Part shown: piece by piece, positions 1,260-58,830 of the stretch
How the letters are laid out: every line of letters starts with the position of its first letter
How positions within the stretch are numbered: position 1 is the stretch's first letter
DNA from: a virus
Virus record (IMG/VR): IMGVR_UViG_3300046780_000148
Coordinates: 1 to 64,000 of that record
DNA length: 64,000 bases
Direction: 5' to 3' (one strand)
Translations under genes and position numbers: made by a program
The notes under the pieces: generated by a model
Databases searched by the model: none
What the model saw: the letters and a program-made list of their open reading frames with translations, nothing else
What the model was told of the DNA's origin: nothing

Positions 1260-1412
1260 CTAAAATCTTTCAACGCGGGAGTACAGACCTCCACCTTAGA
1301 AACTAGCTACCTTTTCTGCATGGGAACCCGAGTGTAAGCGTCGCGTCCTGTGGTGTTCTGATAAGAGAGATAGTTCCGCAAAAAATTTCCCGATTTTCCT
1401 TTGTGGCCACAC
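1260..1412. other. Intergenic spacer ahead of promoter
   Basis: No gene seen. On the minus strand at 1345-1353 it carries one copy of the CCACAGGAC motif that recurs through the window. Confidence 0.5.
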
Positions 1413-1441
1413 TAGATTTTCCATTTTTGCCTCTGTATAAT
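1413..1441 (+). promoter_or_regulatory. Sigma70-like promoter, family P1
   Basis: TAGATT-N17-TATAAT. The spacer begins TTCCATTTTTGC, nearly the same as in the copies at 2983 and 11533, so sequence beyond the hexamers is conserved too. Confidence 0.7.
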
Positions 1442-1505
1442 AAAAATATCAATCAATCTATTTTCAAATCAAACTCAAAAACAGAAAAAACAGAGGGAGG
1501 CGAAA

Positions 1506-2054
1506 ATGAACGATTTAGAAGAACTAGTCAGAAACATTCTAAACAAGAATGTATCGGTAACAGTTCCGAAAATCGAGAAGCAGCAGAAACAGCCGAAAGA
1601 AGCAGAAACCGGCAGTGCTCCGTATCTGCACTCAAACAGCATTTCAAACGTAGCAACGTTCGTAAGCTACGAAGACGTTGAAATCGATCTAACGGAGAAG
1701 CTCAAGAAGTCTGACGTGGTCCTAGAAACCGATCTTGAGAGTCAAGTTCGTTTGATTCTGAGAAAAAAGACAGATCGGATTAATCTAACAGAAACGTCGG
1801 AGCCGAGCAAAAAAGCAGTAAGACAAGCTGTTTCGACACGTAAGATGACACCGACTAACCGCGTATTCAAGGGGATGCCGGGAGATAGTCGGAATGTAAT
1901 GGTTGATGCGATCAAAGCTATTGCAGCCGAGCACACCGGCTGTATTACGGCGGATCACGTTATTCACGACGTACCGATGAAATCCACAACAGCTCGCGGA
2001 GATGGGAACATTATCGCAGGTTACCAAGTAGTTACCGACGGACCGCATCGTTAG
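1506..2054 (+). CDS. Hypothetical early protein
   Basis: 182 residues; ATG preceded by GAGGGAGG. Transcribed from the promoter at 1413. The N-terminal half is Lys/Glu-rich and probably helical; the C-terminal third (from about residue 115) is more compact, with His and Asp residues. I recognise no family. The gene is AT-rich compared with the genes from 3066 onward. Confidence 0.75.
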   Translation: MNDLEELVRNILNKNVSVTVPKIEKQQKQPKEAETGSAPYLHSNSISNVATFVSYEDVEIDLTEKLKKSDVVLETDLESQVRLILRKKTDRINLTETSEPSKKAVRQAVSTRKMTPTNRVFKGMPGDSRNVMVDAIKAIAAEHTGCITADHVIHDVPMKSTTARGDGNIIAGYQVVTDGPHR

Positions 2055-2157
2055 AGTAGTCGTTTTTACAGATTTAGAAAAAACCGTATCAAAGCTTTAA
2101 CTCCTTATTGACATTCATAGTTACGAATGAATTGAAATGAAATGGAGTAAAACAGAG

Positions 2158-2388
2158 ATGGCGAAGCAATCAGTAGTAAACGCGATTAAAGGTAAGAGTA
2201 AGGCGATGTACAAAACTGGCGGAGTGAGTCCGCAGACCCTGCGGGACATTCAGAAATTGTACAAAACGATTTCGATTGCGCCGGATGACAACGCACTCGA
2301 GCGCAAATACTTTCACGGCGGATACAAAGGCAAAGCATGTAAGACCTGCTTCACGAAGTTCTCCGTAAACGGAACTTGTAACTGCTAG
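2158..2388 (+). CDS. Small basic protein with C-terminal cysteine knuckle
   Basis: 76 residues from the ATG at 2158, with GGAG 11 bases upstream; an alternative in-frame ATG at 2137 has no ribosome binding site. It is Lys-rich at the N-terminus and ends CKTCFTKFSVNGTCNC, a four-cysteine pattern that could hold zinc. Nucleic-acid binding is possible; no family recognised. Confidence 0.7.
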   Translation: MAKQSVVNAIKGKSKAMYKTGGVSPQTLRDIQKLYKTISIAPDDNALERKYFHGGYKGKACKTCFTKFSVNGTCNC

Positions 2389-2423
2389 AGAGCTTGTAAC
2401 TGCTAATAGAAAGAGATGCGGCA

Positions 2424-2633
2424 ATGATGAATGAAAACGACATTCCCGAAGAGTTTCTTCGCGAGGTTGAAGCAGAGATCAACCGACAGAACCCGAACGA
2501 GCCCGAGGAGCTGAATCCTCGGGCAGTAGTAAAGTTGGCGTACTACTTGTACTACAACGAAATGAGTGCGGTAGAAGACGGAGTCCAAGCGTACTTCTTG
2601 TACGATCTGCTTAAGTTCACGGCATTCGTGTAG
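2424..2633 (+). CDS. Small acidic hypothetical protein
   Basis: 69 residues, mostly Glu/Asp and Tyr, with no transmembrane segment. AAGAGATG lies upstream. The structured leader of the next gene begins within 10 bases of its stop. Confidence 0.65.
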   Translation: MMNENDIPEEFLREVEAEINRQNPNEPEELNPRAVVKLAYYLYYNEMSAVEDGVQAYFLYDLLKFTAFV

Positions 2634-2642
2634 AGCTTGATT

Positions 2643-2722
2643 TGTACATAATTATTCCGTCTTTGGAACGTTATGTACATTTCAATCGACTATACAGTCG
2701 AGGACGTAAGAGAAGGAGATGC
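2643..2722 (+). promoter_or_regulatory. Two-hairpin leader RNA, copy 1
   Basis: Stem 1 is TGTACATAA (2643-2651) with TTATGTACA (2671-2679). Stem 2 is CGAC (2687-2690) with GTCG (2697-2700), preceded by CAAT. An AGAAGGAGATG ribosome binding site follows. It shares its order of parts with copies at 3702, 4190, 5097, 6335 and 6647, but the paired bases differ and still pair. Confidence 0.6.
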
Positions 2723-2726
2723 GACG

Positions 2727-2930
2727 ATGAACTATGACAACTGGCAAATGTCGTACATCAAGCGAGCGCTGAAAGAGGCGGGGCACGCAGAAGATGCGAA
2801 GCTGACGGGTGAGCAGATTCTAGCGGCGCTTGAAGCGTACGACGAGATCGAAGAGGTAACTCAGGCAGAGGCCGACGAACTCAGCGCGATCGTCATTGCG
2901 GGACTTGATGTAATGAGTCGGCAGAACTGA
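2727..2930 (+). CDS. Small hypothetical protein
   Basis: 67 residues from the ATG directly after GAGAAGGAGATGCGACG. A longer reading from 2673 would run through the leader hairpins and was not chosen. Acidic and helical; no recognised domain. Confidence 0.7.
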   Translation: MNYDNWQMSYIKRALKEAGHAEDAKLTGEQILAALEAYDEIEEVTQAEADELSAIVIAGLDVMSRQN

Positions 2931-2982
2931 AGCAAATCGTCTTAGCGAAAACAGGAAATAAAATTTCCCGTTTTTCCCCCAC

Positions 2983-3011
2983 TAGATTTTCCAAGTTTTC
3001 CCATGTATAAT
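2983..3011 (+). promoter_or_regulatory. Sigma70-like promoter, family P1
   Basis: TAGATT-N17-TATAAT. The flank CCCACTAGATTTTCCA is shared with the 1413 copy. Confidence 0.7.
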
Positions 3012-3065
3012 AAAAATATCAAACAAACTACTTTCATTTCAGTAGAAATTAACGGAAGGAAAAGG

Positions 3066-3482
3066 ATGCGACAGTTTACAAACGAGGAACTCGGGTGGAT
3101 TGAAACCGCCCTCTGCATGACTTCGGACGCCTATTTCGAGATGGCGAACGATCCTATGATGCAGGGGTCCGACGAAGACAAGCAGTCGGCAGCCGAGAGT
3201 ATTCCGATCGGCGAGGGTATGGAGCGGCTGTATCGTGAGTTGGAGATCAACCGCCTCATCCGCGAAGAGAAGTACGACCTGGTCTCGATCGAAATGGTCG
3301 AGCGGGTCGTACGAGACATGGTGTACGATCGTACGGGACCGACGCCGAACGAAGATGAGCTTCGCGCGATTCACGTAGTTGCAACGTACTTCTTCAATGA
3401 GGCGATCGAGCTCGTGAAGCGAGAGGTTCTGCGTCTGTTCGACTTCTCCTACGTCCGCATCGGAACAGGAGACATGCGGTGA
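3066..3482 (+). CDS. Hypothetical protein
   Basis: 138 residues; the chosen ATG follows GGAAGGAAAAGG. A 63-base longer reading would begin inside the promoter. Acidic, predicted mostly helical, no motif recognised. It overlaps the next gene (GTGA). Confidence 0.7.
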   Translation: MRQFTNEELGWIETALCMTSDAYFEMANDPMMQGSDEDKQSAAESIPIGEGMERLYRELEINRLIREEKYDLVSIEMVERVVRDMVYDRTGPTPNEDELRAIHVVATYFFNEAIELVKREVLRLFDFSYVRIGTGDMR

Positions 3483-3697
3483 ACTTTAACGAACGAGCCC
3501 TCGCTGCAACGGAGGTAATCAGCAAGCGAATCATCCAGTACTGGAACGATACAAACCAGTACAACGATGGGGTTGCTGAGACAACCGCGATGACGTTGGC
3601 GCGCTTCATGTGTGCGAGTGACTGCGACATCAACAAGATCGACGATGTTTCGCTCTACCACATGTACCTGCTCGTCGAGTTTCTAGACGTACAGTAA
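3479..3697 (+). CDS. Small hypothetical protein
   Basis: 72 residues from a GTG that overlaps the stop of the previous gene by 4 bases, implying translational coupling. Helical, no family recognised. Confidence 0.65.
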   Translation: MNFNERALAATEVISKRIIQYWNDTNQYNDGVAETTAMTLARFMCASDCDINKIDDVSLYHMYLLVEFLDVQ

Positions 3698-3701
3698 CTG
3701 T

Positions 3702-3775
3702 TTGAGTCGTTCATCTGCAGAGATGTAGATGAGCGGCTCAAGCGGCTATTTGGCCGTGGGCGTAATAAACAGAAG
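3702..3775 (+). promoter_or_regulatory. Two-hairpin leader RNA, copy 2
   Basis: The 15-bp stem TTGAGTCGTTCATCT (3702-3716) / AGATGAGCGGCTCAA (3727-3741) has two G-U pairs, with U always on the 5' arm. A second short stem in GCGGCTATTTGGCCGT follows, and the spacing to the ATG is longer than in the other copies. Confidence 0.6.
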
Positions 3776-3784
3776 GGCACCAAA

Positions 3785-4183
3785 ATGTTCGATATCGCCA
3801 AGCTTGCCGCCGCGTCCCAGACCGTCGAGGTCAGCGAGCTGATCGAGGTCGATGGGCACAGCGCGTACTCGATCGCCGGGATCGTCAACCAGGTGTTGAC
3901 CGCGCGTGGCTACTTCAACGGCGACCCCAAGCGGGTTCCGTTCGCCGGCCAGACGTTCTACGGTCTCGCGAACAAGGGTAAGATCAACGGCAAGAAGCAC
4001 GTCAAGGGCGAGACGACGCGTTACACGGACGAGGAGATCAGGGCCTTCGTTCCGAAGTTCGTCGCGCGTGTTCTCGCCGACGTTGGCATGCAGACGACGA
4101 CCCCGAAGCCGGAGATCGAGGTCGCGGATCGTCAGGCCGAAGCGGTTGAGGCTCCGAAGCCGAGTGCGCCGAAGCGTAACTAG
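3785..4183 (+). CDS. GC-rich hypothetical protein, possibly abundant
   Basis: 132 residues: a compact domain (about 1-100) rich in Gly, Lys and aromatics, then an Ala/Pro/Glu tail ending KPSAPKRN. The sequence is visibly richer in G and C, with C- or G-ending codons, than neighbouring genes. The gene at 18361 shares this codon use and the charged Ala/Pro tail. High expression or a different origin would explain it. No family recognised. Confidence 0.7.
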   Translation: MFDIAKLAAASQTVEVSELIEVDGHSAYSIAGIVNQVLTARGYFNGDPKRVPFAGQTFYGLANKGKINGKKHVKGETTRYTDEEIRAFVPKFVARVLADVGMQTTTPKPEIEVADRQAEAVEAPKPSAPKRN

Positions 4184-4189
4184 TTGATC

Positions 4190-4258
4190 GAGTCGTTCAC
4201 CAGTAGAAATGCTGGTGGGCGGCTCAATCAGCTTGTTGCTGGTTAGATTGGAGATGCG
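4190..4258 (+). promoter_or_regulatory. Two-hairpin leader RNA, copy 3
   Basis: Stem 1 is GAGTCGTTCACCAG (4190-4203) / CTGGTGGGCGGCTC (4212-4225), 14 bp with three G-U pairs. It shares the GAGTCGTTCA base with copy 2 but has a different, still paired tip. Stem 2 is CAGC-TTGTT-GCTG, then GTTAGATTGGAGATG. Confidence 0.65.
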
Positions 4259-4260
4259 AC

Positions 4261-4650
4261 ATGCACGGACTACCTGACAGCTTCGAGTACGCAGGAGAAA
4301 CGTACCCGAAGAAAGCTAGCAGCTGGAACACGCCGCTCGATCGGTTTGTGATCGAAGACAGTCTTCTCGAGGAACACCAGAGGGACCTCGAGGCTGACAT
4401 CGACGGCCTGAACGAGCGGCCCCGATGCGAATTGGACGTGATCGGCGGAGGCGTGTGTCAACGCCTTCTGCTGAACGTCGTGTACGGCGAAGATGGTCTC
4501 TTCGAAGACGGAACGTGTAACAACCCGAATCACACGCCCGACTACGACGATCTGCGCGAGCGCTTGCAAGCGGCGCCAGAGCCTGATGCAAAAGAAGAGC
4601 ACACCTGCATCACGAAAAAAGCCGATGGCTTCTGTTACGACGAGGACTAA
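4261..4650 (+). CDS. Cysteine-containing hypothetical protein
   Basis: 129 residues; ATG after TTGGAGATGCGAC. The C-terminal half has scattered Cys residues in CELD, GVCQ, GTCN, HTCI and GFCY contexts, which could bind a metal. No known motif. Confidence 0.7.
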   Translation: MHGLPDSFEYAGETYPKKASSWNTPLDRFVIEDSLLEEHQRDLEADIDGLNERPRCELDVIGGGVCQRLLLNVVYGEDGLFEDGTCNNPNHTPDYDDLRERLQAAPEPDAKEEHTCITKKADGFCYDED

Positions 4651-4659
4651 GGAGAACTG

Positions 4660-5091
4660 ATGTACATTCCAGTTAACAAGTATCCTTGGAACGAACAGGA
4701 ACTCGAGCACAAGACGCTGACGTGCAAGAATCACCCGTCGGCGCGGTACCTCACGAAGCACGCGTACGCACGTAACTTGCACCTGATCGAGGTGCCAACG
4801 GACGAAGGCATCGAGCGCACGGATATTGGTGAGTGCACGTGTCCGTTCCTCGATATGGTCGTCGTTGTCAACTTCGCGTCGCTCGACAGCAATGCTAAGT
4901 GTGACTTGCTCGCGAAGATGTCGCTCGAGATGGCGTTCGAAGCCTTCTTCGAGGACCCTCAGGGTTGCCCCGTTGACGCGGATGGCTTGTCCGTTGCGGA
5001 TCTGTTCAACAACTTCCTGATGCACTACGAATGGCCCGGCGAGATCGAGTCATGGGATTGGTTGCGGGAGTTCGTCGAATCGCACGTGTAG
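4660..5091 (+). CDS. Hypothetical protein
   Basis: 143 residues, 9 bases after the previous gene, with TAAGGAGAACTG before the ATG. Contains TCKNH and ECTCPF, a possible Cys/His metal site. No family recognised. Confidence 0.7.
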   Translation: MYIPVNKYPWNEQELEHKTLTCKNHPSARYLTKHAYARNLHLIEVPTDEGIERTDIGECTCPFLDMVVVVNFASLDSNAKCDLLAKMSLEMAFEAFFEDPQGCPVDADGLSVADLFNNFLMHYEWPGEIESWDWLREFVESHV

Positions 5092-5096
5092 AGCTT

Positions 5097-5164
5097 GTAT
5101 CGCATATCTTCTGATTTTGGCAGATATGCGGTGCAATCGACATACGTCGGTTAGGATGGAGATG
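5097..5164 (+). promoter_or_regulatory. Two-hairpin leader RNA, copy 4
   Basis: Stem 1 is GTATCGCATATCT (5097-5109) / AGATATGCGGTGC (5122-5134), 13 bp with two G-U pairs. Stem 2 is CGAC-ATAC-GTCG, then GTTAGGATGGAGATG. Same plan as the other copies with different paired bases. Confidence 0.65.
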
Positions 5165-5166
5165 CG

Positions 5167-5673
5167 ATGAAACTGAAAAGGCGTACACCTCACTACGTCG
5201 CAATGCGAGTTGGTGAGATCGGCAAAGAGAAGTACGATGCGGTACTGAAGCGGGAAGAGATCGATACGATCTTCTTCTCACTGCTTGCGTATCGTGACCA
5301 GCTCGTCGACGATCTCGCAACGCACGGTAACGGTCGTGAGCACTTTGGTCTCGAAGACCAGGTGTTCCTCGGTCGTACGATTGCCGAGGTGACAAAGCTG
5401 GCACTCTACATCGCTAGCAAGCAAGAGCTTGATCACTCCGACTCTGTCGGCGACCGCTACAAGAAGCTCACGCGCGAAGAGCTGATTGCATCTCTCGACG
5501 AGAGGTCGCGCCCGCTTGAGGCATTCGGCGGCATGACTCCATCTGAGGTGATGGCGAACGTCGCCGTAGATCCGATCGGCACAGCGCAGATGCTTTCACA
5601 GGCACAAGTGAATGCGTTGCTCGTCGATGACGACTACGATGACGATGATAGTTGCTCGTGTGGGGAGAACTAA
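5167..5673 (+). CDS. Hypothetical protein with acidic tail
   Basis: 168 residues; ATG after ATGGAGATGCG. Helical, ending in an Asp run followed by CSCGEN. No family recognised. Confidence 0.7.
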   Translation: MKLKRRTPHYVAMRVGEIGKEKYDAVLKREEIDTIFFSLLAYRDQLVDDLATHGNGREHFGLEDQVFLGRTIAEVTKLALYIASKQELDHSDSVGDRYKKLTREELIASLDERSRPLEAFGGMTPSEVMANVAVDPIGTAQMLSQAQVNALLVDDDYDDDDSCSCGEN

Positions 5674-5756
5674 TGCAGTGGCCGTGTGTAGGATTCATCG
5701 TCTGCATCTTGATCATCGCATACGTCATCGGACGTGTGCGAGGTATTAAGAAGTGA
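5673..5756 (+). CDS. 27-residue membrane micro-protein
   Basis: Start overlaps the previous stop (TAATG) and the stop overlaps the next GTG. One hydrophobic helix, FIVCILIIAYVIG, then a basic tail RVRGIKK, as expected for a single-pass inner-membrane peptide. Tight coupling on both sides supports it as a gene. Confidence 0.6.
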   Translation: MQWPCVGFIVCILIIAYVIGRVRGIKK

Positions 5757-5995
5757 CCGCCCAAGTTGTGTGGCGTGACGATAGTACCGATACCGCCATG
5801 CTTCAGATGTCGATCTCGGACTTCATCCAGATCGGGTCAGCACTACTGACGACGAAGGGTCAGTACGAGAAAGGCGTCGCAGAAATTGATAATTGGCGTG
5901 CGGCCGAGGAACTCAAGGAAGCTGCCAAAGAGTACGCTGAAGCAGCACTTGCACATGTATGTAACCTACTTCAAGAGCTAGGAGTGCACCGATGA
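5753..5995 (+). CDS. Small helical protein
   Basis: 80 residues from GTG, overlapping its neighbours at both ends. The second half is Ala/Glu/Lys-rich helix. No family recognised. Confidence 0.65.
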   Translation: MTAQVVWRDDSTDTAMLQMSISDFIQIGSALLTTKGQYEKGVAEIDNWRAAEELKEAAKEYAEAALAHVCNLLQELGVHR

Positions 5996-6321
5996 TGCCA
6001 TCAGACATCGATGACGGCTTCGATAAGACGGCCGGCGCAATCGGATCGTTCGAGTTCACGATCGTGTGTAAGGTGCATAGCTGCGTAGTCGTATCCGCAG
6101 ATGCATCGCCCAGCTTCGACACGGATCAGGGAATGAACTATACGTTCCTCAAGAACGACGAAGGCGCATGGGAGCTCGACAACGCAAACTTGTACTGCAC
6201 CGGCACGCCTGTCCTAGGCCATGGTGATCCCTTTCACCCGATCACGCACGAGTTCCTCACGTGTATCACAACGCGTCACGCCAACGGTGAGGTTCTATCC
6301 CGCACGTTGATCGTTAAGTAG
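5992..6321 (+). CDS. Hypothetical protein
   Basis: 109 residues; ATGA overlap with the previous gene. Contains two Cys and an overall beta-rich composition. No family recognised. Confidence 0.65.
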   Translation: MMPSDIDDGFDKTAGAIGSFEFTIVCKVHSCVVVSADASPSFDTDQGMNYTFLKNDEGAWELDNANLYCTGTPVLGHGDPFHPITHEFLTCITTRHANGEVLSRTLIVK

Positions 6322-6334
6322 TAACTGTCCGATT

Positions 6335-6434
6335 CGTACACATTGCCATCGCAGATCTCCACAGGACGGTTTGCGGCACAGTTGGAAATGTGTACGTTTC
6401 AATCAGCTACTCTGCTGGTTAGGTTGGAGATGTG
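6335..6434 (+). promoter_or_regulatory. Two-hairpin leader RNA, copy 5, with insertion
   Basis: Stem 1 is CGTACACATT (6335-6344) / AATGTGTACG (6387-6396), enclosing a 42-base loop that holds AGATCTCCACAGGACG. Stem 2 is CAGC-TACTCT-GCTG, then GTTAGGTTGGAGATG. Confidence 0.65.
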
Positions 6435-6436
6435 AT

Positions 6437-6640
6437 ATGTTTAAGCTTCGTCCGGTGTGTATCGCCGATGGCGCAAAGCAGTTCGTGAACCTCACGGGAA
6501 CGCCGTTCCTCGACAATGGTGACAGTGACTCAAACGTTTGGTCGCCAGACCTCAGTGAGATGACGTGTCCGAAGCACATCGATCTCGAAGGTGGCTGCCA
6601 GGCAAGCTGGCGCATCTGGTTCGAGAACATCGGCGAGTAA
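6437..6640 (+). CDS. Small hypothetical protein
   Basis: 67 residues from the ATG after TTGGAGATGTGAT. An upstream in-frame ATG at 6371 lies inside the leader and was rejected. Contains three Cys; no family recognised. Confidence 0.65.
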   Translation: MFKLRPVCIADGAKQFVNLTGTPFLDNGDSDSNVWSPDLSEMTCPKHIDLEGGCQASWRIWFENIGE

Positions 6641-6646
6641 CCGTTC

Positions 6647-6710
6647 GGGTCATTCATATCCCCAGATATGATTGGCTCAATCAGCTACTCTGCTGGTTAG
6701 TTAGGAGATG
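6647..6710 (+). promoter_or_regulatory. Two-hairpin leader RNA, copy 6
   Basis: Stem 1 is GGGTCATTCATATC (6647-6660) / GATATGATTGGCTC (6665-6678) with one mismatch. Stem 2 and the following GTTAG match copy 5. Confidence 0.65.
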
Positions 6711-6712
6711 CA

Positions 6713-6907
6713 ATGCCTAGGATCGACGTAACGGATGAGGAGCTGCTTTGCATTCGTAGGGCACTTCGTACGCAGAAGCGTACTCTGAACGAGATTCTGG
6801 AGATTACAGCTCCGAGTCCTCTAGCCCTATCGACGGAATCCTTCAGGATCCTGACGGGCGAGATCGCTATGTGCCAGAAACTGCTAGACGAACTCCAAGG
6901 AGAGTAA
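6713..6907 (+). CDS. Small helical protein
   Basis: 64 residues, charged and helical, ending KLLDELQGE. ATG after TTAGGAGATGCA. No family recognised. Confidence 0.65.
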   Translation: MPRIDVTDEELLCIRRALRTQKRTLNEILEITAPSPLALSTESFRILTGEIAMCQKLLDELQGE

Positions 6908-6908
6908 G

Positions 6909-7328
6909 ATGCGACGCACAATCCTATCTGTTGCCGCCTCTGTGGTGCTCTGTGCCGCGTGGGCCGCGCCTGCGAACGCGACAGCAGTAACTAAGACGTC
7001 GGCGGGCTGGATGCAGTACTACCGCGTTCGGACGCCAACGGTGACGATCAACGAGATCTACTACTGCCGCAACACGGTGGCTGGCTCGATCAAGGAGCAG
7101 AACTGCGACGCGTGGGTGGAGAACTCAAACCTGCCCCGCTACAACATGAGCACGTGGCAGTTCGCCCTCTACACGAATTGCTACCAGGAGGGCTTCTCGA
7201 AGCACGACATGCGCGCCTGCACCAAGTGGACGTGGGACGACATGCACAGTACTGCGAAGCACACGCAGATCGACTGGGAGAACGGCAACTACAAGGTCGA
7301 TGGCACCTACTTCGCCTGGTGGAGCTAA
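6909..7328 (+). CDS. Predicted secreted cysteine protein (paralog of 8602 gene)
   Basis: 139 residues. The N-terminus MRRTILSVAASVVLCAAWAA has a basic start and hydrophobic core, and ends in ANA before TAVT, so it reads as a Sec signal peptide cut near residue 25. The mature part has four or more Cys in the pattern YCRN, NC, TNCY and RACT, plus many Trp and Tyr. The gene at 8602 repeats this pattern. Release outside the cell or into the cell wall is implied. The function is unknown; it might act on the host envelope or on competing phages. Confidence 0.75.
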   Translation: MRRTILSVAASVVLCAAWAAPANATAVTKTSAGWMQYYRVRTPTVTINEIYYCRNTVAGSIKEQNCDAWVENSNLPRYNMSTWQFALYTNCYQEGFSKHDMRACTKWTWDDMHSTAKHTQIDWENGNYKVDGTYFAWWS

Positions 7329-8521: not shown

Positions 8522-8536
8522 GTTGTAGCGTTGGAG

Positions 8537-8579
8537 GGATTCATCAGTGTTTTACACAAACACTGGTGAGTCCTTCGAT
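8537..8579 (+). promoter_or_regulatory. Long intergenic hairpin
   Basis: The 16-bp stem GGATTCATCAGTGTTT (8537-8552) / AAACACTGGTGAGTCC (8558-8573) has two G-U pairs, again with U in the 5' arm. It resembles stem 1 of the two-hairpin leaders. No T run follows; AAGGAGG and the next ATG lie about 20 bases downstream. Confidence 0.6.
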
Positions 8580-8601
8580 CCCTATAACAAGGAGGTGTAA
8601 A

Positions 8602-9012
8602 ATGAGTCTAGGGACTATTGCAAACATTTTGGCTGCGTTTGTTATGTCGACGCAGCCACATCACACGTCTGCACAGTGGACACACGAGTTTCATGACGAG
8701 TTCGCTTCAGGCATCTTGAACTCTGAGTGGTACTGCCGTAACGAGATTCCCAACACGTATGCAATGAGCGATTGTTGGGACCGTGAGGGTGATCTGAGTA
8801 TCCCCCGCGTGAACATTACAGACACGCAGTTTGCCATTCTTACGAACTGCTACGGGTTCGACTACACGCTTTCGCAGGACGAGATGCATGCCTGTGTCTC
8901 GTGGACGGAAGCCGATATGGCTTCGCCTGTCGAGCTCACGAACGATCAGTGGATGGATGGTGTGAATAACGTCATCTACCTGTGGGACCCACGGAATCCG
9001 GAGGACAAGTAA
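8602..9012 (+). CDS. Predicted secreted cysteine protein (paralog of 6909 gene)
   Basis: 136 residues from the ATG after CAAGGAGGTGTAAA. Residues about 1-24 form a weakly hydrophobic leader ending TSA. The rest aligns by eye with the 6909 product: WYCRN, a middle Cys, PRVNIT, QFAILTNCY, MHACVSWTEADM. The leader is less typical than in the paralog, so secretion is less sure. Function unknown. Confidence 0.7.
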   Translation: MSLGTIANILAAFVMSTQPHHTSAQWTHEFHDEFASGILNSEWYCRNEIPNTYAMSDCWDREGDLSIPRVNITDTQFAILTNCYGFDYTLSQDEMHACVSWTEADMASPVELTNDQWMDGVNNVIYLWDPRNPEDK

Positions 9013-10388: not shown

Positions 10389-10389
10389 C

Positions 10390-10445
10390 TTGACGTGAGC
10401 TGTTCCTAGCCAATGATTTCATTGGCTGGGTTCATAGAACGTCAA
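10390..10445 (+). promoter_or_regulatory. Nested intergenic hairpin
   Basis: Outer stem TTGACGT (10390-10396) / ACGTCAA (10439-10445); inner stem CCTAGCCAAT (10405-10414) / ATTGGCTGGG (10421-10430). Followed by AAAGGAGATAAC and the next ATG. Confidence 0.55.
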
Positions 10446-10459
10446 ACAAAGGAGATAAC

Positions 10460-10714: not shown

Positions 10715-10789
10715 ATGGGGTTTGCATGTATTGTTTTAGGTCTAGTTGCGATCGCATCACTACTGGCAGCTTGGATTATGTCTAACTAA
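10715..10789 (+). CDS. 24-residue membrane micro-protein
   Basis: Starts immediately after the previous stop. Almost entirely one hydrophobic helix ending AAWIMSN. Very short, so this is tentative. Confidence 0.45.
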   Translation: MGFACIVLGLVAIASLLAAWIMSN

Positions 10790-10915
10790 AGTCTAACAGC
10801 TATGGTCATTAGACCCGTAGAGCTATGTAGCTTCATATAGTTCATCGGTTAGACCTATAAGAGACTCAGTTAGACGCTAGTAGAGACTTCAAGCTAAGCT
10901 TTAGAGAATCGAGGA
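10783..10915. repeat. TCTAAC/GTTAGA palindromic repeat, copy I
   Basis: TCTAAC occurs twice on the left and TTAGAC three times on the right, giving cruciform potential. It ends TAGTAGAGACTTCAAGCTA, also present in copy IV at 58710. Lies between two small genes. Confidence 0.6.
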
Positions 10916-11304: not shown

Positions 11305-11522
11305 AGCAGACCACTCCCGAGAAGTGGGGTACGGTCGTTCATCGTGGTCACGGACGTTGGGGCTTTGAATGTGCCTTCTGCATCACAGGTAGTATGAGAG
11401 CACCTGATTGGGCACGAGCAACGTCGGATAAGGCTTTGACCGCACATGTCGTTGAAAGGCATGCTAACGAGCAACCCGTCAGAGATATTTTGAATCCGCA
11501 AAAAGATTTCCAAAATATCTAA
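11301..11522 (+). CDS. Small zinc-finger-like protein
   Basis: 73 residues from a GTG overlapping the previous stop. Contains CAFC at about residue 24 and HVVERH near 51, so a C2H2-like spacing is possible. Nucleic-acid binding is inference. Confidence 0.6.
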   Translation: MKQTTPEKWGTVVHRGHGRWGFECAFCITGSMRAPDWARATSDKALTAHVVERHANEQPVRDILNPQKDFQNI

Positions 11523-11532
11523 TTTTCCCCAC

Positions 11533-11561
11533 TTGATTTTCCATTTTGTCCCATGTAAAAT
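11533..11561 (+). promoter_or_regulatory. Sigma70-like promoter, family P1
   Basis: TTGATT-N17-TAAAAT, with the conserved flank CCCCACTTGATTTTCCATTT. It would restart transcription in the middle of the small-gene array. Confidence 0.65.
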
Positions 11562-11599
11562 AAGATTAGCACACAAATTCAACTCCAAAAGGAGCCCGG

Positions 11600-16656: not shown

Positions 16657-16726
16657 TTACCTTTGTCGGCGAATCGAACCTGAGTCGTCGGCATTGGAAC
16701 CGCACCCGAGCGGGAAAGGAGATAAG

Positions 16727-17822: not shown

Positions 17823-17863
17823 AAATAAGGAAACAAGGAAAAATTTTGCCCATAAAATCTTCC

Positions 17864-17893
17864 TTGATTTTCTATTGTCACCCAAGTTATAAT
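17864..17893 (+). promoter_or_regulatory. Sigma70-like promoter, family P1
   Basis: TTGATT-N18-TATAAT, with the shared TTTTC after the -35 box. Followed by a short leader and the gene at 17931. Confidence 0.6.
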
Positions 17894-19102: not shown

Positions 19103-19144
19103 CCTTAACTAGCTGCGGTCCTATAGAGGGCGAGCTAGTTAAGG
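19103..19144 (+). terminator. Strong hairpin after 18361 gene
   Basis: Perfect 12-bp stem CCTTAACTAGCT (19103-19114) / AGCTAGTTAAGG (19133-19144) with an 18-base loop. No T run, so it may protect or process RNA rather than terminate. Confidence 0.5.
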
Positions 19145-19151
19145 TTAGACC

Positions 19152-19183
19152 GGTGCACGTCGTTGTCGCATCCGACGTGCACC
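19152..19183 (+). other. Perfect 11-bp hairpin
   Basis: GGTGCACGTCG (19152-19162) / CGACGTGCACC (19173-19183). It stands directly before the first tRNA-like element. Confidence 0.55.
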
Positions 19184-19187
19184 ACTT

Positions 19188-19256
19188 GGGCACGTGGTGT
19201 AATTACTGCACCTCCGAGCTTATCGGAAGGTAGAGGTGTAAATCCTCTCGTGCCCT
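19188..19256 (+). ncRNA. tRNA-like element 1 (degenerate)
   Basis: Acceptor-like stem GGGCACG/CGTGCCC (19188-19194/19249-19255), D-like arm GGTG/CACC, a short hairpin TCCGA-GCTTA-TCGGA where the anticodon arm should be, and a T-like arm AGAGG-TGTAAAT-CCTCT. The 5-base anticodon loop, absence of T33 and non-standard T loop argue against a working tRNA. Confidence 0.45.
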
Positions 19257-19314
19257 CGGGAATGACAGCGCCACTGTTTGGGGTTCCATCCTTCAAACCA
19301 GGAAGACTGTCAAG

Positions 19315-19421
19315 GTGGATGATGGACTCAGTTGGCAGAGTCTCCTCAGCTGTGCGCGCCCTTCTCGGGTTGGGAAGGCGATAGCTTAGGACGTTCGTAG
19401 GTTCGAATCCTACCATCCATC
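19315..19421 (+). ncRNA. tRNA-like element 2
   Basis: Acceptor GTGGATG/CATCCAT (19315-19321/19414-19420), a textbook D arm GACTC-AGTTGGCA-GAGTC and T arm GTAGG-TTCGAAT-CCTAC. Between them 53 bases replace the 17-base anticodon arm plus variable loop. They can fold as CCTCAGCT/AGCTTAGG enclosing a second hairpin (CGCC..TTC/GAAGGCG). The elbow is conserved while the decoding arm is not normal. Confidence 0.55.
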
Positions 19422-19423
19422 CT

Positions 19424-19467
19424 GGTGTAGAGATCGTATCCAGTTCACACCTGACGATCTCTATACC
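19424..19467 (+). promoter_or_regulatory. Long hairpin before 19492 gene
   Basis: 14-bp stem GGTGTAGAGATCGT (19424-19437) / ACGATCTCTATACC (19454-19467) with one G-U pair, then AAGGAGATGCG and the ATG. It resembles stem 1 of the two-hairpin leaders. Confidence 0.55.
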
Positions 19468-19491
19468 TTTACTACAACACAAGGAGATGCG

Positions 19492-19776
19492 ATGGCACGA
19501 AGTGGTAAGCCCCAGGTTGGAAAAGAGAAGTACATCGCCCAGCGTACGACGAAGGATCGGTACGAGCCTCGTCAGCGGACGGTTGGTGGGGTAGTATCTG
19601 AAGGTCAGATTAAGATCGATCAGAGTACTTCGTACAGCGATATCACGAGGAACTACTTGGATCGTTTCCAAGGCGTCCCTACCATTACCGAGTTCGATCT
19701 TCTTCAGATCGACAAGAAGTGGCGTACGATCGGTAAGAAGGCCGAGGCAGGTATCCTGCTCGGGGCTAAGTACTAA
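19492..19776 (+). CDS. Small basic protein
   Basis: 94 residues; AAGGAGATGCG before ATG. Basic first half (Lys/Arg), no domain recognised. It is the only convincing gene between 19093 and 20561. Confidence 0.65.
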   Translation: MARSGKPQVGKEKYIAQRTTKDRYEPRQRTVGGVVSEGQIKIDQSTSYSDITRNYLDRFQGVPTITEFDLLQIDKKWRTIGKKAEAGILLGAKY

Positions 19777-19780
19777 AGCT

Positions 19781-19892
19781 TGCTGGGTAGTTGTATGGGT
19801 AAAATACCTCAATCGCAAATGCTGACGGGCATGATGTATGCCTTCCCCCAAGGTGTACGGAGGAGAAGGTGGTTCGAGTCCACCCCCGGTAA
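19781..19892 (+). ncRNA. tRNA-like element 3
   Basis: Acceptor TGCTGGG/CCCGGTA (19781-19787/19885-19891, two wobbles), D-like arm GTAT-GGGTAAA-ATAC and T arm GGTGG-TTCGAGT-CCACC. About 58 bases replace the anticodon arm, including GGCAT/ATGCC and a CCTC/GAGG closing pair. Begins just after a stop codon, in an AGCTTG context. Confidence 0.5.
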
Positions 19893-20406
19893 CGATCTGT
19901 CTGGTGCGTTGATGTCGGTTACTTCTTGCGGATGATTATACCGGCAAAGTTGTATTGATCTCAGACAGTGTACGTGGGTACGAGATATAAGCAGATGCCC
20001 TGTCATGGCTATTAACTGCGGGGATTGATCACCCTAGGGACTTCAGCTGTCAATGAAACTCGTACTCATGATCAAAGCATGGGGATATGCGCCCGGAGCC
20101 GTAAGCAAACTACGGCCAATGAACAGAGCGGCTGTTGGATCAGTGCAACTAGCGAAAAGTCTCATGGTCTCTTATCTGCCTGTACAACGAAAGCTAAAGT
20201 CACAGGAGCATGCCAGATAAACGGATCGGTGAGTAAGTACCGAAAGCCCCAGCAGTGGTCGGAGGTTTGATTCCTTCTTTCCTCACAATCGTGCGGCATA
20301 TGCTTGGATGCAAGGCGAATATGCAATCGAGAGATTGTGCAGCCGAGGCCCACGAGTAAGTTCCCCATTGACCGGAGGTAACCCCCGAGGCGATGGCTCG
20401 GAAGAT
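19893..20406 (+). other. Gene-free, hairpin-dense region
   Basis: No gene with a ribosome binding site is seen. Stems include CCGTA/TACGG near 20100, CGGT/ACCG near 20226, and CACAATC/GATTGTG (20285-20340) enclosing GCATAT/ATATGC. I looked for tmRNA ends, a group I intron core and further T arms and found none that fit. A structured non-coding RNA of unknown type is the best description. Confidence 0.5.
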
Positions 20407-20471
20407 AAAAGGGCTGTACTAGCGTCACGCGTTCCACGGAAGATACGCGATCTCACTAGTACAGCCCTTTT
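20407..20471 (+). terminator. Strong intrinsic terminator
   Basis: Perfect 16-bp stem AAAAGGGCTGTACTAG (20407-20422) / CTAGTACAGCCCTTTT (20456-20471), an inner CGCGT/ACGCG stem, and a 3' TTTTATT. The stem is complementary through its A and U tracts, so it can act in both directions. Confidence 0.8.
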
Positions 20472-22104: not shown

Positions 22105-22245
22105 AGCTCTACAGCTACTGTCTCTACTAAGTCTAATCGCGTCTAACCTAGGTCTAACTGATGAATCTTTCTCCCACGTGTATCTCTACGGGCTCAAGAT
22201 CTTTCTTGTTAGACTCGCAGTTAGACACCTCGCAATTGTCATCTA
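22105..22245. repeat. TCTAAC/GTTAGA palindromic repeat, copy II
   Basis: GTCTAAT, two GTCTAAC and two GTTAGAC motifs, with a GTCTAACTG/CAGTTAGAC stem. Its reverse complement shares GTCTAACAAGAAAGATCTTG and GATTAGACTTAGTAGAGAC with copy IV at 58710. The CCACAGGGC motif follows at 22253. Confidence 0.65.
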
Positions 22246-33143: not shown

Positions 33144-33165
33144 GATCTGATAGTTTGGTAGTCTT

Positions 33166-33205
33166 GGTCGGATCCCTAATTGTTGGTAGCTTTAGGGGTC
33201 CGACC
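33166..33205 (+). terminator. Hairpin after SSB-like gene
   Basis: GGTCGGATCCCTAA (33166-33179) / TTAGGGGTCCGACC (about 33192-33205) with minor bulges. No T run; it may be an RNA-stability or attenuating element. Confidence 0.55.
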
Positions 33206-33244
33206 ATTCCATATTCCTTCTACGCCGTATGATAGGAGGTGAAA

Positions 33245-35430: not shown

Positions 35431-36336
35431 ATGCGAGACCGATCTGAAATCCTTGATACCGTCACTGACTCCGTCGCCATCGTTTCGGGCGGCATGGATT
35501 CCATCACCATGCTGTACGATATGATTACTAACGGACTTACTCCTCGGGTACTGTCCTTCAACTATGGTCAGCGGCACAAGAAGGAATTGGACTACGCACG
35601 TATCCACGCAGACCGAATGGGACTCCCGCACAACATCGTTGATCTAAGTTCGATCACACACCTGATCAGCAATAGTGCTTTGACTTCTCCTTATGACATT
35701 ATGGAAGGTCGAGCAATTGACGTTCCCGAAGGTCACTATGCAGCAGACAACATGGCACTTACGGTTGTTCCGAATCGTAATATGATCATGGCCGCGATCG
35801 CTGCAGGCGTTGCAGTCAACGATAAGGCATGTACGATCGGTATTGGTATCCACGCCGGAGATCACTACCAGTATCCGGACTGCCGTCCGGAGTTCATCAA
35901 GGCGCTCGAGCACTGCATCCTCGTTGCTACGAACGGCTTCAACAACTTCAAGGCCGGCTATAGCACAAGCAAGTCACTTGCCTCCGATCCGATTAAGTAC
36001 CAGCAGGCAGAACTCGACATCTTTGGCGGTGTGGAAGGTCAATTCGGCATGGCTGAAGTAGGTACTATCTATGCACCCTTCCTAATGAAGACCAAGGCAG
36101 ACATCGCATTCATGGCGCTCGAGATGCAGATCCCTCTTGACCTGACCTGGTCTTGCTACAAGGGCGGCGACGTCCACTGTGGTCGTTGCGGTACTTGTGT
36201 TGAGCGCCTTGAGGCTATTGCTGAAGCAGGTGCCAAGATGAACGAATCAATGATGACTTGGGAAGACAACACAATCTATGCAGACACCGAGTTCTGGAAG
36301 GCTACGGTCAAACCGGCTACCCCCGAAGACGTGTAG
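35431..36336 (+). CDS. queC: QueC, 7-cyano-7-deazaguanine synthase
   Basis: 301 residues, longer than bacterial QueC (about 230). PP-loop SGGMDS (about 19-24), VPNRN (about 111-115), GIHAGDHYQYPDCRPEF (about 136-152) and a C-terminal Cys set SCYKGGDVHCGRCGTCVERL for zinc. QueC converts CDG to preQ0 with ATP and ammonia. Extra sequence lies between the last two motifs. It heads the deazaguanine cassette with queD, queE and folE. Confidence 0.92.
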   Translation: MRDRSEILDTVTDSVAIVSGGMDSITMLYDMITNGLTPRVLSFNYGQRHKKELDYARIHADRMGLPHNIVDLSSITHLISNSALTSPYDIMEGRAIDVPEGHYAADNMALTVVPNRNMIMAAIAAGVAVNDKACTIGIGIHAGDHYQYPDCRPEFIKALEHCILVATNGFNNFKAGYSTSKSLASDPIKYQQAELDIFGGVEGQFGMAEVGTIYAPFLMKTKADIAFMALEMQIPLDLTWSCYKGGDVHCGRCGTCVERLEAIAEAGAKMNESMMTWEDNTIYADTEFWKATVKPATPEDV

Positions 36337-37570: not shown

Positions 37571-37814
37571 GTACGAAGACAAAGCGAACGAGTTCTTCGG
37601 TCTTGAACTCGCTACAGCTGTACGAGAAGGACTTGTCGTACGAGGATTCAATCCGGCAGATAGCTATGCGTTGGAGATTACTCCAGAACTTGCGGCACAG
37701 GAACATGAACAGAATCTTACTCCAGGCTTCCACATCTTCGCAGAAGGCCTTCCCGTAGGAATTATCGATCTCGAAAAGACAAAGGTGTCATGGCAAAATG
37801 ACAATCAAAATTAG
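37560..37814 (+). CDS. Small hypothetical protein
   Basis: 84 residues from an ATG overlapping the queD stop; an alternative ATG is 15 bases upstream. It overlaps queE by 17 bases. No family recognised. Confidence 0.55.
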   Translation: MTSEYEDKANEFFGLELATAVREGLVVRGFNPADSYALEITPELAAQEHEQNLTPGFHIFAEGLPVGIIDLEKTKVSWQNDNQN

Positions 37815-38553
37815 TCACATCTTTGGGCCGACTATTCAGGGTGAAGGTTCAGCTGCTGGAAGGCACTGCCTCTTCGTTCGTGTGTACAACTGCAACCTAG
37901 AATGCACCTGGTGTGATACTGCTTACACGTGGGCAGACACTCCCACTAAGGCCGAGAAGACTATCTCTGGCGAGCTCTTCGATCGGAACGAACCCAAGTA
38001 CGGCCTTAAGAAAATGTCTGTACGAGAAGTTCTGGAAGCGCTACGCTGCCTGTGGGACATCGAGAACATGCCAACCATTATTGTCGTATCAGGTGGCGAG
38101 CCTATGATGCAGCAGGCAGAACTACTTCCCTTGCTACGAATTCTTACCTCCTACGGTCACGAAGTACACATTGAGACCGCAGGCACTATCGCACCCACCA
38201 AAGAGTTCAATAGTGTTGTTACACAGTACAACTGTTCACCAAAGCTCTTGCACAGTGGCAACGTCCTCTCGAAGAGATTCAAGCCAATTGTGATTAAGGC
38301 TATCAACGACACGAATAAGGCCTGGTTCAAGTTTGTCGTTAGTGATGATATCGATGTGTGCTTCGAAGAGATTGCACATATCGCGACGACATGCGATCTT
38401 CCTTACGACCGTATTATGGTTATGCCAGAAGGTTCTACTCCCTCTGAAAATATTGCACTAGCGCAGAAGATTGTCGACCGTGCCCTAGTTCGTGGTTGGG
38501 GCCTTTCATTCCGTACGCACGTCCTTTTGTGGGGAGACGATAAAGACAAATGA
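37798..38553 (+). CDS. queE: QueE, 7-carboxy-7-deazaguanine synthase
   Basis: 251 residues. PTIQGEGSAAGRHCLFVRVY then CNLECTWCD: a radical-SAM cluster motif with C-x3-C-x2-C. VVSGGEPMM, ETAGT and NCSPKL follow, as in QueE. It makes CDG from CPH4 using S-adenosylmethionine and Mg. Overlaps the next gene by ATGA. Confidence 0.93.
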   Translation: MTIKISHIFGPTIQGEGSAAGRHCLFVRVYNCNLECTWCDTAYTWADTPTKAEKTISGELFDRNEPKYGLKKMSVREVLEALRCLWDIENMPTIIVVSGGEPMMQQAELLPLLRILTSYGHEVHIETAGTIAPTKEFNSVVTQYNCSPKLLHSGNVLSKRFKPIVIKAINDTNKAWFKFVVSDDIDVCFEEIAHIATTCDLPYDRIMVMPEGSTPSENIALAQKIVDRALVRGWGLSFRTHVLLWGDDKDK

Positions 38554-44214: not shown

Positions 44215-44325
44215 TGTCAAGCTATTTAACAAGCTTAGACTTTAGTTAGACAGAAGATTCATAGTAACGCCGTAGCTCTATATACGTTAAGGATCTTGAT
44301 TGTTAGACTTTAGTTAAACTTGAGG
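44215..44325. repeat. TCTAAC/GTTAGA palindromic repeat, copy III
   Basis: CTTAGAC, GTTAGAC and GTTAGACTTTAGTTAAAC motifs around ATTCATAGTAACGCCGTAGC. Its reverse complement begins GTTTAACTAAAGTCTAAC, shared with copy I. It lies upstream of the 44333 gene. Confidence 0.55.
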
Positions 44326-58709: not shown

Positions 58710-58830
58710 TAGTGTCTAAGCTCGTCTAACAAGAAAGATCTTGAGCCGGTGTATCTCTGTAGCTTCGAGTATTCCTCTTGTTAGACGTAGCTTAGACTTG
58801 ATTAGACTTAGTAGAGACTTCAAGCTAGAG
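58710..58830. repeat. TCTAAC/GTTAGA palindromic repeat, copy IV
   Basis: GTCTAACAAGA / TCTTGTTAGAC form an 11-bp stem, extended outside by GTCTAAGCT / AGCTTAGAC, about 20 bp in all. It continues GATTAGACTTAGTAGAGAC. It separates the inserted three-gene cassette from the chaperone genes. Confidence 0.7.

Follow-up and report, generated by a model that had tools for sequence, protein, structure and literature searches.

A family of covarying two-hairpin leader RNAs in the gaps between small phage genes

Repeats associated with gene starts have been described in actinobacteriophages since 2011; their role is not known, and RNA pairing was set aside for want of covariation. In Cluster K mycobacteriophages and Cluster EF Microbacterium phages, the SAS and ESAS repeats lie upstream of some non-structural genes, in gaps over 50 bp, where a conserved ribosome-site stretch follows an imperfect inverted repeat whose spacer varies (PMC3203893, PMC7302621). 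The ESAS authors concluded that departures within the arms do not support RNA pairing, and preferred DNA binding (PMC3203893). The present analysis concerns six leader RNAs, each of two hairpins, between small genes of a phage (IMG/VR record IMGVR_UViG_3300046780_000148, 72,847 bases); the window, meaning the whole stretch of DNA analysed, is bases 1-64000 of this record. By layout, the nearest family is the SAS/ESAS of Cluster K, whose inverted repeat of about 17 bp, with its variable spacer, lies just upstream in the place that stem 1 takes here. In contrast, the 13-bp GGGATAGGAGCCC (or GGGAAAGGACCCC) at the ribosome binding site is absent, the stretch there being GTTAG-N3/4-GGAGATG; a second stem is present; and the arms, which in SAS/ESAS are conserved with uncompensated departures, vary and compensate one another. 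Without the 13-bp SAS, and with arms that covary, the leaders are similarly placed but are not SAS/ESAS members, and a family of ESAS-like layout with covarying arms makes a post-transcriptional role directly testable.

The leaders also resemble the RNase III sites of the T7 early mRNA (R0.3, R0.5, R1, R1.1 and R1.3), which are likewise repeated segmented hairpins between the small early genes of an operon, with the stop codon at or near the base and the ribosome site shortly after, but which have no conserved second stem. In particular, the T7 sites R0.5, R1, R1.1 and R1.3 lie between early genes and fold like the leaders, and the R0.5 stop codon is located in the stem base. T4-type phages carry repeated stem-loop cassettes between small early genes, the promoter early stem-loops (PeSL); unlike these, the present leaders have no promoter match in a sigma-70 scan, and the Shine-Dalgarno (SD) sequence is part of the element. 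Further, 18-bp inverted repeats occur in intergenic gaps upstream of starts in Cluster EG (PMC7302621), and 17-bp, short inverted repeats in Cluster O phages (PMC4351075); both kinds have a fixed sequence and are best taken as DNA sites, whereas the leaders vary in sequence and keep their pairing. A comparison with Rfam, proposed when the leaders were first noticed from sequence alone, yielded no family above its gathering threshold in the window, and a permissive search of the leader region returned only a miRNA model, on the opposite strand and far below threshold. Overall, the leaders are a real, small, covarying RNA family, and a variant form of a phage intercistronic element already known in kind.

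The genes between 2633 and 6907 are small and on the plus strand, and six of their gaps, of 72-115 nt, hold the element, which runs from the upstream stop codon to the next start codon. Every gap in this region longer than 40 nt holds one, except a gap with a promoter-like TATAAT box; at the remaining junctions, the genes abut or overlap. The genes are called early by inference from their position only. All six copies are in the places given by the sequence-only reading (2643, 3702, 4190, 5097, 6335 and 6647), and are listed here as elements 1 to 6, with z denoting the folding score.

Element 1, 2634-2726, plus strand: stem 1 at 2637-2685 (arms 2637-2651/2671-2685, with a UU/UU internal loop); stem 2 at 2686-2701 (UCGACU/AGUCGA); SD GGAG at 2715; start codon at 2727; GTTAG absent.
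Element 2, 3698-3784, plus strand, z -6.45: stem 1 at 3702-3741 (18 pairs, GAGA loop); stem 2 at 3742-3757 (GCGGC/GCCGU); SD GAAGG at 3772, in place of GGAGATG; start codon at 3785.
Element 3, 4184-4260, plus strand, z -5.9: stem 1 at 4188-4227 (GAAA loop); stem 2 core at 4228-4242 (UCAGC/GCUGG); GTTAG at 4242; SD GGAG at 4250; start codon at 4261.
Element 4, 5092-5166, plus strand: stem 1 at 5095-5136; stem 2 at 5137-5150 (UCGAC/GUCGG); GTTAG at 5150; SD GGAG at 5158; start codon at 5167.
Element 5, 6322-6436, plus strand: stem 1 at 6329-6402, with an inner hairpin inserted at 6345-6386; stem 2 at 6403-6418; SD GGAG at 6426; start codon at 6437.
Element 6, 6641-6712, plus strand: stem 1 at 6645-6680; stem 2 at 6681-6696 (identical to that of element 5); SD GGAG at 6704; start codon at 6713.

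Stem 1 starts 3-9 nt past the stop codon of the preceding gene, opening with UUG (or what is left of it) and closing with CAA; the long stem had been seen, but its extent was understated, as it has 15-18 pairs from UUG/CAA around a loop of 4-42 nt, and up to 26-28 pairs when its flanks are included. Stem 2 (AAUCNNC..GNNGGUU) lies directly 3′ of stem 1, with which it shares the CAA, and is followed by GTTAG-N3/4-GGAGATG and the start codon. Most of CAAT and GTTAG owes its conservation to base pairing, in which AAU and GUU lengthen stem 2 and CAA completes stem 1. The proposed common order, CAAT-stem 2-GTTAG-GGAGATG, is complete in 4/6 copies and departs past stem 2 in the other two: element 2 has CAAG and GAAGG and lacks GTTAG, as does element 1. 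Five positions of stem 2 are 100% paired; its core is CAGC/GCUG in three copies and CGAC/GUCG in two, as described earlier, to which a third type, CGGC/GCCG in element 2, has to be added. The ribosome site was placed just past stem 2; the SD follows the CNNC/GNNG core at 8 nt in four copies and at 13-15 nt in the other two. The inner hairpin of element 5 contains an antisense copy of the CCTGTGGAG repeat.

The six leaders are one RNA family with two helices, whose fold is under selection. A covariance model built from three copies (R1: the 4190 and 5097 copies and stem 1 of the 3702 copy) finds the 6647 copy (E 3.1e-9) and the 6335 copy (E 3.8e-7) when used to search the 72.8 kb record, and a second model (R2), built from five copies with the 2643 copy excluded, recovers that copy at E 2.6e-7. 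The suggested covariance-model check therefore came out in favour of the family, with left-out copies recovered at E 3.8e-7 or better. When the six copies are paired by hand, 115/124 pair cells are standard (92.7%), and double-change comparisons number 86, a fourfold excess over the 21.7 in column shuffles (0/5000 as high); the copies are paralogues of one genome with common ancestry, so that the cells are not independent events and the shuffles overstate independence. Each 5′ arm pairs at 90% with its own 3′ arm, versus 69% with the arms of other copies. In the model-fitted alignment of five copies, which is biased towards its own structure, 11/23 pairs show double changes (0/500 shuffles), and pairing falls from 92% to 26-45% when the partner is slid by 1-3 columns. 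Antisense model matches, which are the same hairpins in reverse reading, were excluded from the hand-paired and model-fitted counts. Individual leader folds have z of -2.2 to -6.5; a list of hairpins drawn up with RNAfold under loose criteria contained too much noise to be relied on.

The wobble pairs indicate the strand on which selection acts. There are 15 G-U cells versus 4 A-C cells, and because an A-C is a G-U of the opposite strand, this ratio argues that the sense RNA is selected. The U is on the 5′ arm in 12/15 G-U pairs, so the earlier statement that wobbles keep U on that arm applies to most of them but not to all. Together with a syntenic leader in a relative, the pair tests and the sense-favouring wobbles bear out the original proposal that compensatory change reveals a selected RNA fold.

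This relative (G002; contig L005, 62.7 kb, 65%) and another (G009; L083, 62.3 kb, 61%) are the closest in IMG/VR by the primase-like protein among near-complete contigs. The primase-like protein search led to about 80 relatives and matched no bacterial genome, and protein searches from the early genes led to G002 and G009 only. G002 has homologues of several genes of the leader region, and the gene order around the elements differs between the two phages. In 20 kb of the corresponding region of G002, the best R2 match (L086 10446-10375, minus strand, E 2.2e-4) is syntenic with element 5, both following the stop codon of gene 5992 or its homologue, and two more leaders rank 4th and 6th. Compared by eye, 17/21 arm bases are common to this leader and element 5, with two compensatory changes, A-U to G-C and U-A to A-U. 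Four hairpin leaders of this G002 region were examined: each folds into a single segmented hairpin that reaches from the stop region as far as the SD (z -3.9 to -5.5), and in 4/4 the stop codon is paired in the hairpin base.

Other searches delimit the family. R1 with speed filters gave no significant match in G002 or G009, and R2 gave nothing significant over 1.27 Mb of more distant relatives, where a single match at E 0.07 falls in tandemly repetitive sequence. Megablast and blastn against GenBank phages found no near DNA relative of the phage and no DNA homologue of the leaders. A pairing-neutral leader pattern had zero matches in IMG/VR; the same pattern matched 12 stretches of GTDB genomes, none recognisable as a phage leader and 2/12 being repeat arrays. 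From distant DNA-polymerase matches, which occurred alongside other taxa, an actinobacterium may be guessed as the host.

The leaders are best explained as RNA elements of the sense strand which, in a polycistronic phage transcript, occupy the space from each stop codon to the next ribosome site. Tentatively, we rank first the reading that they punctuate this message for a host enzyme of the RNase III type, as in T7 early mRNA, the nearest precedent that has been tested, because the T7 sites are alike in position and fold and because RNase III needs structure over sequence. RNase III sites have no strong consensus, and a 12-bp stem with a tetraloop can suffice (PMC8708148); an actinobacterial RNase III, that of Streptomyces, cleaves mRNA (PMC2936110). 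The long leader hairpins are segmented, with about 24-30 rungs or about two helical turns, and lie in intercistronic gaps, which matches the T7 sites in layout and size. In 12 kb of T7, the best R2 match is R1.3, a weak one (E 0.44) that does not establish homology. Stem 1 would be the double-stranded site at which RNase III-type processing punctuates the message; cleavage inside it would part the genes from each other, with stem 2 left close to the new 5′ end as a shield of the downstream mRNA against 5′-end-dependent decay, while the GTTAG-GGAGATG stretch would remain open to ribosomes.

Several observations weigh against this account. Any hairpin of such length can resemble an RNase III substrate, and a bare requirement for double strand leaves the wobble at pair 6 and stem 2 itself unexplained. 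Moreover, stem 1 of element 6 is broken 7 pairs from the loop, some copies folded singly favour other structures in place of stem 2, and the support from covariation comes from six paralogues of one genome and a few leaders of one relative.

The competing folds raise another explanation, possible though doubtful, in which translation is coupled through the stop codon. Here, the stop region and the 5′ arm or loop of stem 2 would form a stem 0, giving one long hairpin; a terminating ribosome would open stem 0, stem 2 would form, the downstream ribosome binding site would be freed, and the genes would be translated in step. In 5/6 leaders, the minimum-energy fold does pair the surroundings of the stop codon with the stem-2 region and is 3-7 kcal/mol lower in energy than the two-hairpin fold; elements 2 and 3 thereby reach as many as 26-28 pairs (in element 3 as an alternative 28-pair hairpin across the stop codon). 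Summed over the six leaders, flank pairing is 45 versus 29.3 in shuffles (4/20000 as high), and the G002 leaders, with the stop codon paired in the base of a single hairpin, also speak for coupling. However, the excess over flanks swapped among copies is weak (22/720 as high), stem 0 is mismatched in most copies and covaries little, neither state clearly sequesters the SD, and the phage couples genes by plain overlap too. SD accessibility is modestly, not significantly, above that of leaders with a shuffled upstream part, and does not separate the hypotheses. The pairing of stop region with stem 2 is treated here as a lead. Extended to the lineage, it would make the leaders intercistronic RNA switches with the upstream stop codon in the closing helix and stem 2 as the competing fold, which is a speculative and improbable generalization; its consequence, no more probable, would be that a terminating ribosome resets the ribosome site of the next gene, while sequence diverges freely and the fold is kept.

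It is unlikely that the leaders are operators for a phage or host RNA-binding protein that represses or activates translation of the gene set jointly, as a leader regulon. Positions common to the otherwise variable stems (pair 3 as G-C; pairs 6-8 mostly as U-G, C-G and G-C), the conservation of GTTAG-GGAGATG in four copies and the presence of one element on several genes would suit such a protein, but no candidate has been identified, the loops differ between copies, and none of the genes concerned has a recognised function. A role as U-tract-free attenuators or terminators, or as protectors of the 3′ end of the upstream gene, is still more doubtful: the hairpins are strong and directly past stop codons, and many gaps of the phage are structured, but a U-tract is lacking throughout, and the conserved stem 2 and SD-proximal stretch, tied to the downstream start, would be superfluous in a 3′ element. 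DNA-level sites, whether bound by a dimeric protein, which was the suggestion for ESAS, or used in cassette-shuffling recombination, are highly improbable, as the ESAS-like layout, the span from stop to start codon and the different gene order in G002 are set against arms with no fixed sequence, compensatory change and a preference for G-U over A-C (15:4), unlike DNA palindromes. Two further candidates were rejected: an intrinsic terminator, with no U-tract at any of the six elements, and a promoter or early promoter cassette, with no sense-strand match at the cut-off in 1300-7000 in a scan for the sigma-70 type only.

The six elements are the sequence-related core of a broader habit of stop-to-SD hairpins in these phages, as more divergent leaders with the order stop, hairpin, SD occur in G002, in G009 and elsewhere in this phage. 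Those of the window are:

8522-8601, plus strand: same architecture with a different sequence, a 19-pair upper stem on a GUUGUAG/CUAUAAC base, from stop codon to SD (-46.2 kcal/mol, z -10.3; sub-threshold R2 match at 8532-8597, E 0.26).
10389-10459, plus strand: stop-to-SD hairpin before gene 10460, with a UUGACGU..ACGUCAA base and no stem 2 (z -4.7).
16657-16726, plus strand: possible divergent two-hairpin leader before gene 16727, with a UU/UU internal loop in stem 1 and CCGC/GCGG as stem 2 (R2 match E 2.4; z only -1.7).
33144-33244, plus strand: hairpin leader before the primase-like gene 33245 (or 33239) (R2 match at 33168-33241, E 0.066; z -2.3).

Judged by eye, sub-threshold sense R2 matches fall in gaps more often than coding density predicts. 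Co-directional gaps of 50-130 nt were also folded, on the basis of automated gene calls that, like the promoter filter, are crude. Where a gap has a -10-like box, it is unstructured (median z near 0), and gaps without one reach z <= -2.5 in 10/21 cases in this phage and 9/17 in G002, versus 3/25 and 2/25 in coding controls. Some of these hairpins may be terminators. A similar pattern appears in several relatives, T7 and Anaya, and some relatives lack it. These results suggest a rule that could guide annotation, namely that a co-directional gap in these phages tends to be a promoter or else a stop-to-SD hairpin.

Other repeats were found in the record. A repeat around CCTGTGGWG (often TCGCGYCCTGTGGWGNTCTG) occurs on the plus strand at 1347, 18020, 23873 and 38664, on the minus strand at 6365, 22259, 28949, 36347, 44505 and 58684, and also in L003 and L088-L091; several copies are flanked by complementary-looking arms, and one lies antisense within stem 1 of element 5. 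The looser CCTGTGGDG occurs 12 times in the window and about 20 times in the pieces of G009, on both strands, where simple base odds predict one or two. A second intergenic family, of GTTAGAC..TTAGTTAGAC blocks near gene starts, is located at 10786-10890, 22147-22220, 44245-44320 and 58730-58790 and at about 7093 of L003 (minus strand), with related G009 blocks at L088 4340-4440 and L089 15748. Promoter-like repeats, CTAGATTTTCCA...TGTATAATAAAAAT, at 1393-1471, 2963-3041, 11513-11591 and 17863-17887, with similar boxes in G009 gaps, are probably start sites of early operons. The region 19140-20430 resembles a tRNA gene region (TTCGAATCC stretches and a typical antisense open reading frame), and ARAGORN and Rfam reported no tRNA there.

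Among the genes, 3785-4183 and L003 7934-8332 lie close to opposite ends of the record and encode two small paralogues (34% identity) with homologues in G002 and G009, and 6909-7328 and 8590-9012 encode related small proteins (30% identity), one of which has an apparent signal peptide and is possibly secreted. Further, 35431-36336 and 37798-38553, named by sequence inspection only, are QueC-like and QueE-like genes of the 7-deazaguanine pathway, which suggests that the phage DNA may be modified.

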